In this document: positions 5,251 through 11,117 of the stretch, piece by piece
Position numbering within the stretch: position 1 is the stretch's first letter
Layout: every line of letters begins with the position of its first letter
From: Nitrosarchaeum sp.
GTDB taxonomy: Archaea > Thermoproteota > Nitrososphaeria > Nitrososphaerales > Nitrosopumilaceae
Assembly (NCBI GenBank): GCA_025699025.1
Contig: JAILWJ010000001.1
Location: 1 to 64,000 of the forward strand
Direction of reading: 5' to 3'
Length of the DNA: 64,000 bases
The notes under the pieces: generated by a model
The model's input: the letters and a program-made list of their open reading frames with translations, nothing else
The model's database searches: none
What the model was told of the DNA's origin: nothing
Program-made: the position numbers and the translations under genes

Positions 5251-5610
5251 ATGGATTTCAAAGGCTTCCTGTCTTCTATGTCTCTTTTTTTCATTGCCGG
5301 ATTGTGTGAGATTGGTGGCGGTTATCTGGTTTGGCTGTGGCTGCGTGATGATTTTGGTTTTGTAATTGGCTCCGTTGGTGGTTTTGTTTTGTTTCTTTAC
5401 GGGATTGTACCGACATTTCAGAAAACCCACTTTCACAGAATCTATGCGGCATATGGCGGAGTCTTTATTGTAATGTCTGTCTTTTGGGGATGGCTAATTG
5501 ACGGAGTCATGCCTGATAATTATGACATTCTTGGGGCAGTCATTGCAGTAGTCGGTGTACTGATAATTTTTTACTATCCAAGAAAGGGTGAGAAGATCTG
5601 GTCGAAGTAG
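5251..5610 (+). CDS. UPF0060 (YnfA-like) small membrane protein, copy 1
   Basis: The 119-residue protein has four predicted membrane segments and family signatures FFIAGLCEIGGGYLVWLWL, YGIVPTFQ and RIYAAYGGVFIVMSVFWGW. YnfA relatives belong near the small multidrug resistance fold, where subunits pair as dimers. The next gene is a diverged copy that begins on the last base of this one, so a two-gene operon making a heterodimer is possible. Substrate unknown. Confidence 0.85.
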   Translation: MDFKGFLSSMSLFFIAGLCEIGGGYLVWLWLRDDFGFVIGSVGGFVLFLYGIVPTFQKTHFHRIYAAYGGVFIVMSVFWGWLIDGVMPDNYDILGAVIAVVGVLIIFYYPRKGEKIWSK

Positions 5611-5930
5611 TGCTCTCAACTCTGGGACTGTTCTTTTTTGCTGCATTGCTGGAAATTGGCGGTGGCTATCTCGTATGGAAGTGGCTGCGTGATCACAAGG
5701 GGAAAATATTTGGGCTTGTCGGCGGCTTGGTATTGTTTACTTATGGGATTGTCATGACATTTCAGCCTGCAGATTTTGGGAAGGTGTATGCCACATATGG
5801 TGGGATCTTTGTCGTGTCCTCAATAATCTGGGGATACTGGGTGGATAAGAAAAGACCCGACAGGTTTGAGATAATTGGCTCAATGGTTGTCTTGGTAGGC
5901 GTTGCTGTGATGTTTTATTTTCCAAGATAA
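5610..5930 (+). CDS. UPF0060 (YnfA-like) small membrane protein, copy 2
   Basis: The 106-residue paralogue has the same signatures: FFFAALLEIGGGYLVWKWLR, YGIVMTFQ, KVYATYGGIFVVSSIIWGY. It starts with GTG at 5610, sharing one base with the stop codon of copy 1, which means tight translational coupling. Charged residues at the loop and C-terminus differ from copy 1 (WVDKKRPDRFE against WLIDGVMPDNYD), as expected if the two insert with different topology. Confidence 0.85.
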   Translation: MLSTLGLFFFAALLEIGGGYLVWKWLRDHKGKIFGLVGGLVLFTYGIVMTFQPADFGKVYATYGGIFVVSSIIWGYWVDKKRPDRFEIIGSMVVLVGVAVMFYFPR

Positions 5931-5931
5931 T

Positions 5932-6109
5932 GTAGTTCGTGGAATCAAGAAGGATTGTTCTGATTATTGATGGCTGCCAAATTTATCATAATTATTTGAG
6001 AAATCACATGGGGCTTGATGGTAAGACACCAAGTGAGGCATGTGGTATTACTATTGAAGGAGATAACAAGTGGAAGACATTGATCCAAAACGCAAGCGTA
6101 AAATGCTAA
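5932..6109 (+). pseudogene. Decayed C-terminal fragment of the DDE transposase found at 8586-9722
   Basis: Translation in two frames gives VVRGIKKDCS and then, after a frameshift, DGCQIYHNYLRNHMGLDGKT followed by NKWKTLIQNA. This lines up with the tail of the intact transposase (MRGIKKDDSVIFDGYQIYHNYI, GLEGKT, NKWITLIQNA). There is no start and the upstream part is gone. It is what remains of an older copy of the same element type, directly before the matrixin gene. Confidence 0.88.
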
Positions 6110-6154
6110 TTTCCAAAAATGGGAATTAAATACTAGTATTACAATAATACTCTG

Positions 6155-7069
6155 ATGAAATATGTTGGTAGGGATACTGACAGAAAGAATCCACTAGATA
6201 GCCTTCCGCAAATAGACGATGATGAAGCAAATGTCATGGAAGAAATTCAATCGGCAATAAAAAATATAGAAGACAACCAGAAAAACCTGACCAAAACAAT
6301 CAGAATAAAATCTACAATCATAATGGGCGTAATTGCAGTATTTGCAATAATCATAGCAGTGGTCATGACTCAGGTTTTGATACCTAGTGGCGTTTTTGAA
6401 ATCAGTGGAACACTAAAAGATGAAATGACAAGCGGTTATTTCATTGAGAACCTAAAAGGCGACAGAATCGACACGTGGGTATCATGGAAAATAGTAGATG
6501 GTGACTACTTTCACATACACGTAATAGAATCACCCGAGGTCACTCAGGAAAGACTGGACGTAATTAATAATGTGATATATTCGACTGAGACAGTAGAAAT
6601 TCCCAATAGTCTTTTGCATACCTTCCCACAGGGCGAATCATCTACATATTACAAGGGTTGGGCAGGTGCATTAGGAACAATATCTGGTACAAAATTCCCT
6701 GTTCCAATTCACTATCATTCAGCAATCACTGATTCTGGAACTGGACAGATCACAATAAGACTTACCAACCTGAAAAATGCAGATGGATACAGCGGATATA
6801 CAAGATCACAAGTGGATGAATCAAACAACCAGATACTGAAATCACAAATTACGATATTCAATGTTGACAATCTGAGTTTGAAAGAATTGGAGGCAATCAC
6901 AAGACATGAACTAGGACACGCATTTGGTCTTGCACATTCTGATAACCCAGATGATTTGATGTATCCTACCATCAAAACCAATTTTCCGTACATCAATCCA
7001 TGCAATGTTCAGGCAATTGCAGAACTATACGACGGCAATGAAAAAGGCACTGTAATTTGTGAAAACTAG
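6155..7069 (+). CDS. Membrane-anchored matrixin-like metalloprotease, paralogue 1
   Basis: The 304-residue protein has a cytosolic N-terminal helix (about 25-50), one membrane segment (about 53-75) and an extracellular domain ending in the metzincin zinc site HELGHAFGLAH (H251, H255, H261) with a Met-turn DDLMYPT at M269. That is the matrixin (M10) pattern. Upstream, ENLKGDRIDTWVSWKIVDG and YKGWAGALG are shared with the paralogues at 41684-42691 and 49044-49946. Unlike those, this copy has no kinase beside it: it lies between a transposase remnant and an orphan element end, so it may be old transposon cargo. The promoter contains the palindrome AATACTAGTATT (6129-6140). Substrate unknown. Confidence 0.88.
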   Translation: MKYVGRDTDRKNPLDSLPQIDDDEANVMEEIQSAIKNIEDNQKNLTKTIRIKSTIIMGVIAVFAIIIAVVMTQVLIPSGVFEISGTLKDEMTSGYFIENLKGDRIDTWVSWKIVDGDYFHIHVIESPEVTQERLDVINNVIYSTETVEIPNSLLHTFPQGESSTYYKGWAGALGTISGTKFPVPIHYHSAITDSGTGQITIRLTNLKNADGYSGYTRSQVDESNNQILKSQITIFNVDNLSLKELEAITRHELGHAFGLAHSDNPDDLMYPTIKTNFPYINPCNVQAIAELYDGNEKGTVICEN

Positions 7070-7072
7070 ATA

Positions 7073-7121
7073 CCCGACGAAACTTTACACGTACAAGATC
7101 CGACGAAGACTTGACAGAACC
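7073..7121. repeat. Orphan right end of an older element
   Basis: CCCGAC, then ACTTTACACG and a final ACTTGACAGAACC repeat, in the same direction, the right end of the intact element (11054-11109). It directly abuts the 8-bp target copy at 7122-7129. This indicates that an earlier element, now largely lost, ended here. Confidence 0.75.
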
Positions 7122-7129
7122 CCCAAGCG
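7122..7129. repeat. Target-site duplication, left copy
   Basis: CCCAAGCG lies between the orphan right end and the left inverted repeat. The second copy is at 11110-11117. Only the boundary that makes the repeats start GGTTCTGT gives an exact 8-bp match. Confidence 0.82.
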
Positions 7130-7196
7130 GGTTCTGTAAAGATATGGGGACATTGATCAAAATATTCTATCTGTAAAGTGTCGGGACATGGGTTAA
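7130..7196 (+). repeat. Left terminal inverted repeat
   Basis: This is the 67-bp left end, aligning without gaps to the reverse complement of 11043-11109. Positions 43-67 are identical, the first eight are identical, and the middle is diverged. Confidence 0.88.
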
Positions 7197-7294
7197 CTCA
7201 CGCCTAATTTTTACATAAATATTTGACTTTATTCATTGATAATGTCTCATAAAGTTTAACTGTGACTAATTTAGGACTCATATTGGAATAAAAT

Positions 7295-8128
7295 ATGACT
7301 ATCTGTGTAGGTGCGATTAGTAAAAATTCTAATGCTGCAGAACAGTATGCTTTAGTTGCATCCGATAGAATGGTTACTCTTTCATTACCTAGTATTGAAT
7401 GGGAACAAAATGTTTCTAAAACCCTACCAATATCTGATAATTGTGTTGCTGCAACTGCAGGATCTGCAATCGCATTTACAGAGATTTTACGAAATGCCAA
7501 ACCTAAGATCAATGGATTAAAAAAGAAAAACATAGCAGAAATAGTAGATATTATTCGTCAAGAGTATAATGAAGCCAGATTAAAAAAAATAGAAGAAGAT
7601 ATTCTTTCAAAAATTGGCTTAACATTAAAAACATTTTATGAAGGAAATCAAGTTATTTCACCTCAAATTGTTCAAACAGTAATGGATGCTATGGCAAAAT
7701 TCAACTATGGATTATCAATTTTAATTGCAGGTGTAGACGATTCAGGAGCACATATTTACAGAATAGACAATCCTGCACGAGCTGATTGTTTTGATTCTAT
7801 AGGATATTGTGCAATAGGTAGTGGAGATCTTCATGCATTAACTACTTTTATCGCAAATGATTATGATCCAAATTTAGATCTTAATCATGTTTGTGCCATG
7901 ACATATGAATCAAAAAAACGTAGTGAAAAGGCTCAGGGAGTTGGTGAAAAAAGCGATCTTTACATAATATGTGATAGTAGAGTAGTAAAGATGCCTTCTG
8001 ATGCAATTGAAAAGTTAGATAGCATCTACTTAATGCGTGCAGAACAAGAAAAGAAAGTAGTGGCAGATATTCAAAACGAAATTGAAAAGTTAGATATTGA
8101 GAAAATAGAAAAGAATGGTCGAGTCTAG
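7295..8128 (+). CDS. Proteasome/HslV-like Ntn-hydrolase peptidase carried on the transposon
   Basis: The 277-residue protein begins MTICVGAISK, so Thr2 becomes the N-terminal nucleophile once Met is removed, without a propeptide. It then shows the proteasome-beta/HslV pattern: YALVASDRMVT (Asp24, equivalent of D17), SKTLP (Lys42, equivalent of K33), VAATAGSAIAFTEI, and a late YCAIGSGDLHALTTF matching the GSG loop of HslV. About 45 residues of charged helix follow the core, which HslV and beta subunits lack. No ATPase or alpha-type partner is encoded in the element. This is not the core proteasome; substrate and oligomer are unknown. Cargo for protein turnover or defence is inference. Confidence 0.8.
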   Translation: MTICVGAISKNSNAAEQYALVASDRMVTLSLPSIEWEQNVSKTLPISDNCVAATAGSAIAFTEILRNAKPKINGLKKKNIAEIVDIIRQEYNEARLKKIEEDILSKIGLTLKTFYEGNQVISPQIVQTVMDAMAKFNYGLSILIAGVDDSGAHIYRIDNPARADCFDSIGYCAIGSGDLHALTTFIANDYDPNLDLNHVCAMTYESKKRSEKAQGVGEKSDLYIICDSRVVKMPSDAIEKLDSIYLMRAEQEKKVVADIQNEIEKLDIEKIEKNGRV

Positions 8129-8310
8129 TTCTCTAGCAATATATTCTCATCATCATCCAATAATGGATTTGAGACAAATCCGTTAAATTGTGTTGATTCA
8201 TTTTGCTGAGAACTGGCTTTTTCAAATAACACGCCGTTATTAGTCAATGTGTTTGACTCTGAATTTGTATTATTTAATAGTAGTGATCTTTTTTTGTACA
8301 TTTTACTCAA
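8125..8310 (-). CDS. Small hypothetical protein
   Basis: This 61-codon frame is rich in Asn, Ser and Leu (LLLNNTNSESNTLTNN) and meets the peptidase gene tail to tail with a 4-bp overlap. No domain is recognised. The first Met may be at 8310 or 8301. The even spacing to the RHH gene upstream on the same strand supports a real gene only weakly. Confidence 0.4.
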   Translation of the reverse strand: MSKMYKKRSLLLNNTNSESNTLTNNGVLFEKASSQQNESTQFNGFVSNPLLDDDENILLEN

Positions 8311-8370
8311 TAATATTACGTGTTCTTCACATTAAAGTAATACGCAGTATTATCAAAGTACAGAATAACT

Positions 8371-8511
8371 TTATGAGTTGATTTCAAGTTCATTCTTTAT
8401 TGCATTATTCAAAAACTCTGCTGCTGTAATTCCACGCTTAATAGCCTCAATTTTCGCTTGTTTCCATAATTCTTCATCTATCTTAATTGAAGTCACTATT
8501 AATTCTCCCAT
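8371..8511 (-). CDS. Ribbon-helix-helix (CopG/Arc-type) regulator
   Basis: The 46-residue protein MGELIVTSIKIDEELWKQAK has the RHH layout: a beta strand (IVTSIKID) followed by two helices (EELWKQAKIEAIKRG, TAAEFLNNAIKNELE). It is divergent from the transposase gene, and the space between them carries iterated TACTAC/GTAGTA sequences. It is probably an autoregulator and transposase repressor, or the antitoxin-like half of a pair. Confidence 0.75.
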   Translation of the reverse strand: MGELIVTSIKIDEELWKQAKIEAIKRGITAAEFLNNAIKNELEINS

Positions 8512-8559
8512 ATCAAATATTTACTGATCGTAGTATTTAATTATATTAGTATAACTATT

Positions 8560-8587
8560 AATACTACTACAATACTACTAGTAGTAT
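8560..8587. promoter_or_regulatory. Probable operator in the RHH-transposase divergent promoter
   Basis: AATACTACTA occurs twice in direct order (8560-8569, 8571-8580), and the second copy is half of the 16-bp perfect palindrome ATACTACTAGTAGTAT (8572-8587), which runs into the transposase ATG at 8586. A protein bound here would block transcription start and translation. The RHH protein next door is the obvious candidate. Confidence 0.6.
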
Positions 8588-9722
8588 GGAAACAAATCCA
8601 CGCCAAGAAAAAGGAAAAGAGATAGCAAAACGACAGGACATTATTAGAGTTTCAGATATTCACTATAGAGTACATTCCCAGACAACAAACAGAGAGTATG
8701 ATGTTATCAAGGTCGGGGAGGATTTCACCTGTACCTGTCCAGATCACAAGTTCAGACACGTTTGCTGTAAGCATATTCATGGCGTGGAATATTCATTGAG
8801 ATTCAGAGAGGAAGTAAGAAAACAAAATACCATAACACTAGAACCAATCAACGTTTCATCATGTCCAAAATGTCTATCATCTAATATCACAAAACATGGA
8901 ATCAGACACAACAAGTATGGAGACATTCAAAGATATTCCTGCAAGAACTGCCACAAGAGATTCTCAATAAACATCGGATTTGAAAAGATGAGGGCAACAC
9001 CTCAGGCTATCACTTCAGCCATGCAACTATACTTTACTGGTGAATCACTTAGAAGCGTGCAGAAATTCCTTAGATTACAAGGTGTAGATGTATCTCATCA
9101 GACTATCCTAAACTGGATTACCAAGTATACCAAAGTCATGAAATCATACCTAGACAAGATAACACCACAAGTAGGTAATGCATGGAGGGCAGATGAAGTA
9201 TGGACAAAAGTAAGAGGGGATCTAAAGTATCTATTTGCTTTGATAGATGACGAAACAAGATGGTGGTTAGCCAAAGAGGTAGCAACCTCAAAGGAAAAGC
9301 ATGATGCAAGTGGGTTATTCAGACAAGCCAAAGAGATTGCAGGAACTAGACCAAAGGTCATCATTACAGATGGATTGAGATCATATCAGGATGCTTACAA
9401 AAAGGAGTTTTGGACGATAAACAGACAGGATAGGACATTACACATTCGCCATATACACTTGAAAGGGGACATGAATAACAATAAGATGGAGAGATTCAAT
9501 GGAGAGTTTAGGGATAGAGAAAAGGTAATGCGAGGAATCAAAAAAGATGATTCAGTTATTTTTGATGGTTATCAGATTTATCACAATTACATCCGAGAAC
9601 ATCAGGGATTGGAGGGTAAGACTCCAGCTGATAAAGTAGGAATTGATGTTAAAGGAAATAATAAATGGATTACGTTGATTCAAAATGCAAAAAAGCATAT
9701 GAAAAAATCAAATTCCGAATAA
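8586..9722 (+). CDS. DDE transposase with N-terminal SWIM zinc finger (IS6-like)
   Basis: The 378-residue protein contains, in order: a SWIM-type finger (C49, C51, C61, H63 in FTCTCPDHKFRHVCCKH), a second zinc ribbon (C93, C96, C119, C122), a helix-turn-helix (SLRSVQKFLRLQGVDVSHQT) and an RNase H-like catalytic core with RADEVW (D203), ITDG (D262) and NKMERFNGEFRDREK (E302). The core fits IS6-family DDE enzymes; the added SWIM finger is not part of classical bacterial IS6 transposases. The frame is intact. A decayed relative of its C-terminus lies at 5932-6109. Confidence 0.9.
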   Translation: METNPRQEKGKEIAKRQDIIRVSDIHYRVHSQTTNREYDVIKVGEDFTCTCPDHKFRHVCCKHIHGVEYSLRFREEVRKQNTITLEPINVSSCPKCLSSNITKHGIRHNKYGDIQRYSCKNCHKRFSINIGFEKMRATPQAITSAMQLYFTGESLRSVQKFLRLQGVDVSHQTILNWITKYTKVMKSYLDKITPQVGNAWRADEVWTKVRGDLKYLFALIDDETRWWLAKEVATSKEKHDASGLFRQAKEIAGTRPKVIITDGLRSYQDAYKKEFWTINRQDRTLHIRHIHLKGDMNNNKMERFNGEFRDREKVMRGIKKDDSVIFDGYQIYHNYIREHQGLEGKTPADKVGIDVKGNNKWITLIQNAKKHMKKSNSE

Positions 9723-9726
9723 AAAA

Positions 9727-9897
9727 TTATTCGAGTTTGAGTGTGATTGTACCGTTTTCAGCACTAATCAAAAATCGTGCACCTTTTTCTATTCCAAGAC
9801 CATCTTTGATCGCTTTTGGAATAATCAAAGCTAAAGAGTCATTGCCATTAGCTTTGTAAACTGTACCTACACCAAAAATTGGTTTTTCCATAGTCAT
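9727..9897 (-). CDS. AbrB/SpoVT-like swapped-hairpin DNA-binding protein
   Basis: This 56-residue protein reads MTMEKPIFGVGTVYKANGND and continues SLALIIPKAIKDGLGIEKGA, the AbrB/MazE fold signature (S-x-x-IPK-x-I-xx-LGI-xx-G). The start is ATG 9897 or 9891. It points towards the transposase and is divergent from the unknown gene at 9981. Such proteins act as transition regulators or antitoxins. Confidence 0.8.
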   Translation of the reverse strand: MTMEKPIFGVGTVYKANGNDSLALIIPKAIKDGLGIEKGARFLISAENGTITLKLE

Positions 9898-9914
9898 ATT
9901 AGATCACATCCCAT

Positions 9915-9960
9915 ATATCAATATTTATATAGTTTAAGCTATATGAATATAGCTAGGAAA
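9915..9960. promoter_or_regulatory. Divergent promoter between the AbrB-like gene and the gene at 9981
   Basis: This AT-rich stretch contains TTTATATAG and the inverted pair ATATAG/CTATAT separated by six bases. It can serve as TATA box and as a binding site for the AbrB-like protein. A purine-rich AAAGGTGTGAG before ATG 9981 looks like a ribosome binding site. Confidence 0.4.
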
Positions 9961-9980
9961 TTAGAAAGGTGTGAGAACAA

Positions 9981-10583
9981 ATGTCGATAATAAACACGTC
10001 AAAAACCAAATTAATGTTCGAGTTAAGAAAAAAATATCCACGTTTACAGATTGTGGATGAAATAGCATCTGTAATACTTGCTGGTGAAGCATTAGGGGCT
10101 ATTGATGAAACACGCAAACGTAAAAGATGGGAATTTATCAAAAATGGTGCAAAAGATGCCGCATTTTATGCAGCATATAAAAAATATGGATTATTAGTAA
10201 AAAAAGAGAAGGAACTCAAAAGATATTTTGAATACAAAAGACCACATGCCAACAGGTTAGATAACAATACGGCAATACTAAATGCATTAAAATATGAACA
10301 AACAAAACTTTATGCCCATATGTTATCAGATCACAATGTACGAAATGCTATTGTGAAAACGTTATCTTTACCATCTAAAGATCTAACTTCAATTAAAAGA
10401 GCTATTGAAAAAGGAAGTTTATATGAACAACTTAATGTTTATGGAAAAATACTCCGATTTCTCATGGATGAAAAATTATATCATCAACGTCACGATTACT
10501 ACATAATAGGATTCAGAAATATACCCCATCATTATTGGCTTAGCAAAGTAGCCATAAAATTATTAGCAGATGCAAAAAAGTGA
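9981..10583 (+). CDS. Hypothetical protein of the transposon
   Basis: This is a 200-residue, basic, largely helical protein without membrane segments. Notable stretches are KRKRWEFIKNGAKDAAFYAA, KKYGLLVKKEKELKRYF and the histidine-rich YHQRHDYYIIGFRNIPHHYW near the C-terminus. I recognise no family. It is followed after four bases by the TM-protein gene, so the two are likely made together. Confidence 0.65.
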   Translation: MSIINTSKTKLMFELRKKYPRLQIVDEIASVILAGEALGAIDETRKRKRWEFIKNGAKDAAFYAAYKKYGLLVKKEKELKRYFEYKRPHANRLDNNTAILNALKYEQTKLYAHMLSDHNVRNAIVKTLSLPSKDLTSIKRAIEKGSLYEQLNVYGKILRFLMDEKLYHQRHDYYIIGFRNIPHHYWLSKVAIKLLADAKK

Positions 10584-10587
10584 GAAT

Positions 10588-11046
10588 ATGATCAAGAATG
10601 ATCCACATCACTGTCATTGTTTTAAAATTCTAAATACTCATTTTGATTTATTCAGAAATAAATTAGAACAGAATGGATTTACAGATGGACTTCAAATGCC
10701 AAATGGACAATTATTTGGAAGAATCAAAAAAATCAATGCTGAAGAACAAATGCATGTTAAATTAATGCAATCAGGAATTATTGAAGCAGAGATAGAACCA
10801 TCACAAGATTATCCTGTGGCACATTTGAATCAAAAACACAGTTATTCTGCACATAACCAATTACAAGAATTACTCAATCAATTTGGTATTCCGCATATAC
10901 GTAATTGGTCAATTCCCCTTTGGTGTATTCGACCGATTATTGTAAAACCATTCAGACCTACTCATGTCAAGGTTATTGCAGGCGTCATCGTTGTCATACT
11001 ATTTGCAGGCGTTCTAGGATATGCTTTGGCAAAAAGTAAGAATTAA
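10588..11046 (+). CDS. Hypothetical protein with C-terminal membrane anchor
   Basis: The soluble part starts MIKNDPHHCHCFKILNTHFD and contains a His-Cys cluster (HHCHC) and KHSYSAHNQLQELLNQFGIP. One membrane segment (VKVIAGVIVVILFAGVLGYA) lies near the end, so the protein is tail-anchored with its bulk in the cytosol. The in-frame ATG at 10570 would overlap the previous gene; I prefer ATG 10588, four bases after its stop. The last codons lie inside the right inverted repeat. Function unknown. Confidence 0.6.
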   Translation: MIKNDPHHCHCFKILNTHFDLFRNKLEQNGFTDGLQMPNGQLFGRIKKINAEEQMHVKLMQSGIIEAEIEPSQDYPVAHLNQKHSYSAHNQLQELLNQFGIPHIRNWSIPLWCIRPIIVKPFRPTHVKVIAGVIVVILFAGVLGYALAKSKN

Positions 11047-11109
11047 CCCATGTCCCGACACTTTACACGCATAAGATCTACACTAAACACCCGATAACTT
11101 GACAGAACC
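11043..11109 (-). repeat. Right terminal inverted repeat
   Basis: This is the 67-bp right end. It overlaps the last four bases of the stop region of the TM-protein gene ending at 11046, so that gene reaches into the repeat. Confidence 0.88.
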
Positions 11110-11117
11110 CCCAAGCG
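11110..11117. repeat. Target-site duplication, right copy
   Basis: CCCAAGCG follows the right inverted repeat and leads directly into the radA promoter region. Confidence 0.82.

Follow-up and report, generated by a model that had tools for sequence, protein, structure and literature searches.

A proteasome-like threonine hydrolase as a probable passenger of an IS6-like transposon in an ammonia-oxidising archaeon

Relatives of the proteasome are known to be carried by hosts and by some phages. Within this superfamily, HslV constitutes a bacterial group, and PHI, ACC and WPH are uncharacterised proteasome-like families described by Fuchs, Alva and Lupas in 2021 (PMC8665760). Among mobile elements, members of the IS6 family have GG tips and 8-bp duplications, and a passenger gene is listed for a single one of them (PMC7986276); in a 2019 mobile-element survey of the phylum considered here, passenger-carrying transposons were not detected in archaea (PMC6563490). 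As the archaeal IS6 members have been argued to form a separate family (PMC6807381), we use the label IS6-like. Here, we describe a proteasome-like gene of the ammonia-oxidising archaeon Nitrosarchaeum sp. that is encoded between the ends of such an element, in the first 64,000 nucleotides of contig JAILWJ010000001.1 (assembly GCA_025699025.1; hereafter the window).

What can be discerned from the sequence about the nature of the protein? The ORF, which opens with an ATG and encodes 277 residues, is a real gene, and its product belongs in all probability to the threonine-hydrolase class. It matches the Pfam proteasome family (PF00227) with 38.7 bits, the curated cut-off being 22.4, at an E-value of 1.1e-9, and with the single sequence as query, proteasome beta is retrieved from the PDB at 4e-6. 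A profile of 12 family members matches M. jannaschii proteasome beta (3h4p) at 9e-12, and profile-profile comparison of the family with archaeal beta subunits (hhalign) yields a probability of 94 and an E-value of 1e-7. The PF00227 match and the profile alignments bear out the proteasome-type Ntn hydrolase proposed in the initial annotation. Its HslV-like label, however, is not supported: the PDB matches listed for the 12-member profile are alpha and beta proteasome subunits, neither HslV nor Anbu chains being among the 60 listed, and a helical insertion behind H1/H2 and a C-terminal helix are features of the PHI, ACC and WPH type (PMC8665760). Its sequence places the protein outside both HslV and the canonical proteasome subunits, in a sparse, divergent family. 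For the alpha-beta-beta-alpha Ntn fold, structure prediction with Foldseek, suggested as a check, retrieved a proteasome chain in every one of the 50 top-listed PDB matches, but with TM-scores of 0.35-0.45 and for a model, built by AF2 from three sequences, of low confidence (pLDDT 49.5, pTM 0.46). This weak model predicts H1 and H2 followed by a helical insertion, and shows the extra C-terminal helix claimed earlier at about residues 235-265, again at a pLDDT of 49.5.

In the N-terminal alignment of the 12-member profile with M. jannaschii beta, T2 corresponds to Thr1, D24 to Asp17, K42 to Lys33 and G56 to Gly47, and the GSG loop is found at G175-S-G177. The proposed catalytic layout of Thr2, Asp24, Lys42 and GSG is thus positioned as had been stated, but it is not invariant: among the 12 homologues compared, K42 is absent from G652 and the Met-Thr start, and with it T2, from G450, the most divergent, while the middle residue of the loop varies between S, I and T. 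A loss of Thr2 or Lys42 in all homologues, which would have spoken against the assignment, is not observed, each being lost in one of the twelve. The putative catalytic residues are strongly, though not absolutely, conserved in the family. Asp166 and Ser169, accessory residues of the proteasome, are not conserved; a HMMER alignment places A213 and V216 of the window protein there, and the family has a conserved set of its own, comprising D148, H153, D167, K207/K208 and G215-V-G217. As in-frame stops close the frame 5' of the ATG, the claimed absence of a propeptide is confirmed. Two related element-borne hydrolases share an extension of 24-34 residues before Met-Thr (L038 9303-9404; L034 7846-7917), a possible candidate for a propeptide.

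Could the gene be a decaying, inactive paralogue of a proteasome subunit? One homologue, in G009, is a pseudogene, and the loss of the lysine in another would be compatible with decay. However, the ORF is intact and retains the triad, pN lies well below pS throughout the hydrolase clade (with synonymous sites near or at saturation), a pattern that points to purifying selection across it, and the host genome encodes four canonical-type proteasome subunits separately, along with one more divergent relative; we consider decay highly improbable. This divergent relative, a proteasome-like protein of 294 residues, is different from the hydrolase (L055 1003-1887).

Compared by description only, the protein resembles PHI, ACC and WPH in its putative proteasome fold, in its triad, in the absence of a propeptide and an ATPase partner, and in its sparse occurrence in archaea and bacteria. 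An insertion after H1/H2 is a PHI feature with which its length and predicted secondary structure agree, and its C-terminal helix would fit the C-terminal coiled coil of ACC, WPH and some PHI proteins, both within a weak model; it is unlike these families, as described in PMC8665760, in being carried by a transposon, which is not reported there. The missing ATPase partner, initially judged unusual, says little, given that 22 further proteasome-like families have been described for which a co-occurring AAA+ partner was not found (PMC8665760). HslV does not have the insertions of the window protein (PMC8665760). Anbu, an ATPase-independent homo-oligomer within the superfamily, is similar in its C-terminal helix. 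With canonical archaeal proteasome beta the protein shares the Thr/Asp/Lys/Gly active-site layout, but differs by some 30 extra residues behind the predicted H2, a longer C-terminal helix, the replacement of Asp166/Ser169 and the lack of a propeptide. This departure of the accessory residues from those of the protease would also suit a connectase-like ligase or transpeptidase instead of a protease. Connectase is indeed an archaeal proteasome relative acting in this manner, but it has no H1/H2 and carries its insertion between S3 and S4 (PMC8665760), whereas the low-confidence model of the window protein predicts H1/H2 with the insertion after them, making such an activity improbable.

The hydrolase gene lies within an element of IS6-like character (Table 1). 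Its inverted arms of about 70 bp, at 7129-7199 and 11040-11110, are 76% alike and have GG tips, and they are bordered by a perfect duplication, CCCAAGCG, whose only two occurrences in the window, both strands considered, are at the element tips; a scan around the transposase for 8-bp duplications with matching tips returned this pair of ends alone. The transposase, the only intact copy in the genome, scores 119.4 bits with the NCBIfam IS6 model (NF033587), just under the cut-off of 125. The element has a GC content of 0.333 versus 0.43-0.45 in the flanks, and for its 200-residue passenger ORF a single distant relative was found among 150 related genomes. In combining an IS6-like DDE transposase and a passenger gene with GG tips and 8-bp duplications it resembles ISDsp3, a tIS of the IS6 family (PMC7986276), while the archaeal elements differ in being larger (about 2.2-4 kb), in their long terminal inverted repeats and in having passenger genes before as well as after the transposase.

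Table 1. Features of the element and its decayed neighbour, in window coordinates
Feature	Position	Strand	Support or remark
Decayed neighbouring IS6-like element	5957-7121	+	abuts the 3,980-bp element, not part of it
Transposase C-terminal remnant in decayed neighbour	5957-6097		
Matrixin-type metalloprotease gene, N-terminal membrane segment, in decayed neighbour	6155-7069		
Right tip of decayed neighbouring element	7109-7121		
Left copy of 8-bp target duplication CCCAAGCG	7122-7129	.	
Whole passenger-carrying IS6-like transposon, 3,980 bp	7130-11109	+	inverted ends, 8-bp duplication, block absent in G003/G004
Left terminal inverted repeat, tip GGTTCTGT	7130-7199	+	
Proteasome-like threonine hydrolase, 277 aa (Thr2/Asp24/Lys42), class probable	7295-8128	+	PF00227, profile alignment to proteasome beta, purifying selection
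Small ribbon-helix-helix-like ORF (weak)	8374-8511	-	below Pfam cut-offs
IS6-like DDE transposase, SWIM/zinc-ribbon N-terminus	8586-9722	+	PF13610 E 6e-17; NF033587 E 2e-34
MazE/AbrB-like small ORF (weak)	9742-9897	-	below cut-off
200-residue passenger ORF without a known domain	9981-10583	+	
158-residue passenger ORF with a hydrophobic segment at the C-terminus	10570-11046	+	
Right terminal inverted repeat, tip ACAGAACC	11040-11109	-	
Right copy of 8-bp target duplication CCCAAGCG	11110-11117	.	

The region is missing from two genomes of the same genus, which are 88-91% identical to the window close to the junctions: the left flank and the radA flank are 39 bp apart in G003 (to about 5145 and from about 11119) and 250 bp apart in G004 (to about 5132 and from about 11104). 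The roughly 6 kb that both genomes lack take in the decayed element upstream and two UPF0060 genes as well, so that the absence of the whole block is established rather than one clean excision confined to the 3,980-bp element. These UPF0060 (YnfA-type) membrane genes form a tandem pair at 5251-5930. As the decayed neighbour has the matrixin gene, a protease gene is found both there and in the adjoining 3,980-bp element. A composite transposon of two identical insertion sequences was considered and rejected, since the upstream remnant shows no more than 62% identity and the element's true ends are at other positions. In G008, an independent related element of 2,733 bp, with duplication ATAAAACA, is found just upstream of radA. 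At three junctions in two genomes (window 7109-7137; L034 4730-4753 and 7773-7796), neighbouring elements abut with their tips separated by exactly 8 bp, and the 8-mers of the L034 junctions, CGATTAAA and TTTAATCG, are reverse complements of each other.

That a chromosomal gene merely came to lie between IS remnants could be argued from the diverged remnant upstream and from several homologues being chromosomal, but is hardly credible in view of the enclosing terminal inverted repeats with their perfect 8-bp duplication, the absence of the block in both sister genomes and a second bounded element with a homologue. The same evidence upholds the description of the gene as transposon cargo in the initial annotation, and we regard the hydrolase gene as very probably a passenger of the IS6-like transposon.

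This second bounded element, in G171 from another family, measures 3,359 bp, has the duplication AAAATTTA and contains hydrolase, transposase and another ORF in the order seen in the window, its hydrolase being 25% identical to the window homologue and occupying the same position. At two more loci, both cut by contig ends, the hydrolase starts close to an IS6-like tip: in G096 (Nitrosotalea) it begins 129 bp in from the left tip, with a transposase after it, and in G569 it begins 300 bp in from such a tip. In G569 a MazE/AbrB-like gene precedes the hydrolase, and G127 retains a decayed piece of this upstream regulator. In the tree, the window copy groups with G127 and G569 (89/89), and G171 and G096 form a separate group (100/99); the remaining branches, three of them long, are poorly resolved. 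Since the tree places the two element-borne lineages at a great distance from each other, the link to elements is either old or arose more than once, and with distant versions of the gene in related archaeal elements it looks like a long-standing passenger and not a chance neighbour. About eight homologues, several of them chromosomal, are outside any detected element; a pair of IS6-like ends was not found near the hydrolase for G641, G652, G009, G008, G415, G550 and G450, and the contig of the G412 homologue is short.

Does the hydrolase serve the element itself? It could process or degrade the transposase or an antitoxin-type regulator such as the MazE/AbrB-like ORF, thereby controlling transposition or addicting the host. 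In each of the four cases linked to an element, no gene is closer to the left end than the hydrolase, which stands before the transposase wherever this is visible; this position, and the MazE-like ORF in two of the four, would be in keeping with such a role. However, most related elements do without the hydrolase, so that transposition does not need it, and chromosomal copies exist away from any element; service to the element is in our view unlikely.

The family is found in 10 of 400 genomes of the order and in 8 of 398 genomes of the phylum; a single bacterial relative comes from a Zixibacteria MAG. The latter is followed by an IS1-like transposase, and an enclosing terminal inverted repeat with duplication was not found there. 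Carriage by phages, plasmids or viruses was rejected: neither the window protein nor the Zixibacteria homologue matched the phage and plasmid collections, and family members had no match in IMG/VR. The hydrolase likewise had no match in the defence library. In G008, a divergent Prok-E2_E and ThiF/E1 pair is situated some 750 bp away from the chromosomal homologue (L037 6848-8627), in defence-rich surroundings that include restriction-modification and PDC-S18 genes. From this proximity one might picture a miniature degradation system in which the hydrolase acts with a ubiquitin-like conjugation pathway, but it is confined to this single locus, with no such genes near other homologues or beside the window gene, and we hold the idea to be very unlikely.

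Passenger-carrying elements of this kind appear to be common in these archaea, as judged from 18 transposase loci that were picked by transposase similarity and not at random. A strict criterion of at least 13 of 16 matching tip positions and an exact 8-bp duplication is satisfied by seven of the 18. Four further loci have GG tips matching at 11-12 of 16 and an 8-bp duplication, and are less certain because they come close to the best shuffled scores. A control of duplication length gives a modest peak at 8 only, with seven loci versus six at length 4, a length at which some matches should arise by chance. The bounded elements, at least seven and up to eleven, all measure 2.2-4 kb and all have extra ORFs. 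One of 3,009 bp (L122 4504-7512), with perfect 40-bp inverted ends and the duplication CTGAGAAG, carries an AbiV-type HEPN gene weakly matched in PADLOC.

For the window protein, our preferred reading is an ATPase-independent threonine hydrolase of narrow specificity that is retained as useful cargo, in an element that reads from its left end through hydrolase, transposase and other ORFs to its right end. Methionine aminopeptidase would remove Met1 and expose Thr2, which together with Asp24 and Lys42 would attack the peptide bond. Given the helical insertion predicted behind H1/H2, together with the C-terminal helix of the weak model, the assembly may be small or open, akin to Anbu or PHI, rather than an ATPase-fed barrel, and a narrow substrate would most likely be cleaved or processed without an unfoldase. 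The hydrolase may then have been retained for helping the host or the element in a conflict setting, a reading favoured by the AbiV-type HEPN gene of the sister-type element, though not by the lack of a defence-library match for the hydrolase. Overall, the best explanation, and a likely one, is an N-terminal-threonine hydrolase of the proteasome family that travels on a multi-passenger IS6-like transposon and is kept for a benefit in conflict; the conflict or cargo-benefit role, taken by itself, is a tentative proposal that may well prove wrong.

A proteasome relative as a repeated transposon passenger is not reported in the literature cited here, and at least seven, up to eleven, bounded examples with 8-bp duplications compare with none in archaea in the earlier survey (PMC6563490). 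More speculatively, and with considerable doubt, small IS6-like transposons with passengers could make up a so far undescribed class, widespread in ammonia-oxidising archaea and serving as vehicles of conflict genes (AbiV-type HEPN, the threonine hydrolase and others), in which the hydrolase would be an ATPase-independent enzyme of defence or element control. The passenger elements provide a defined set of genes of unknown function in which roles in defence and element control can be tested, and the window hydrolase offers a natural small threonine hydrolase for assay.
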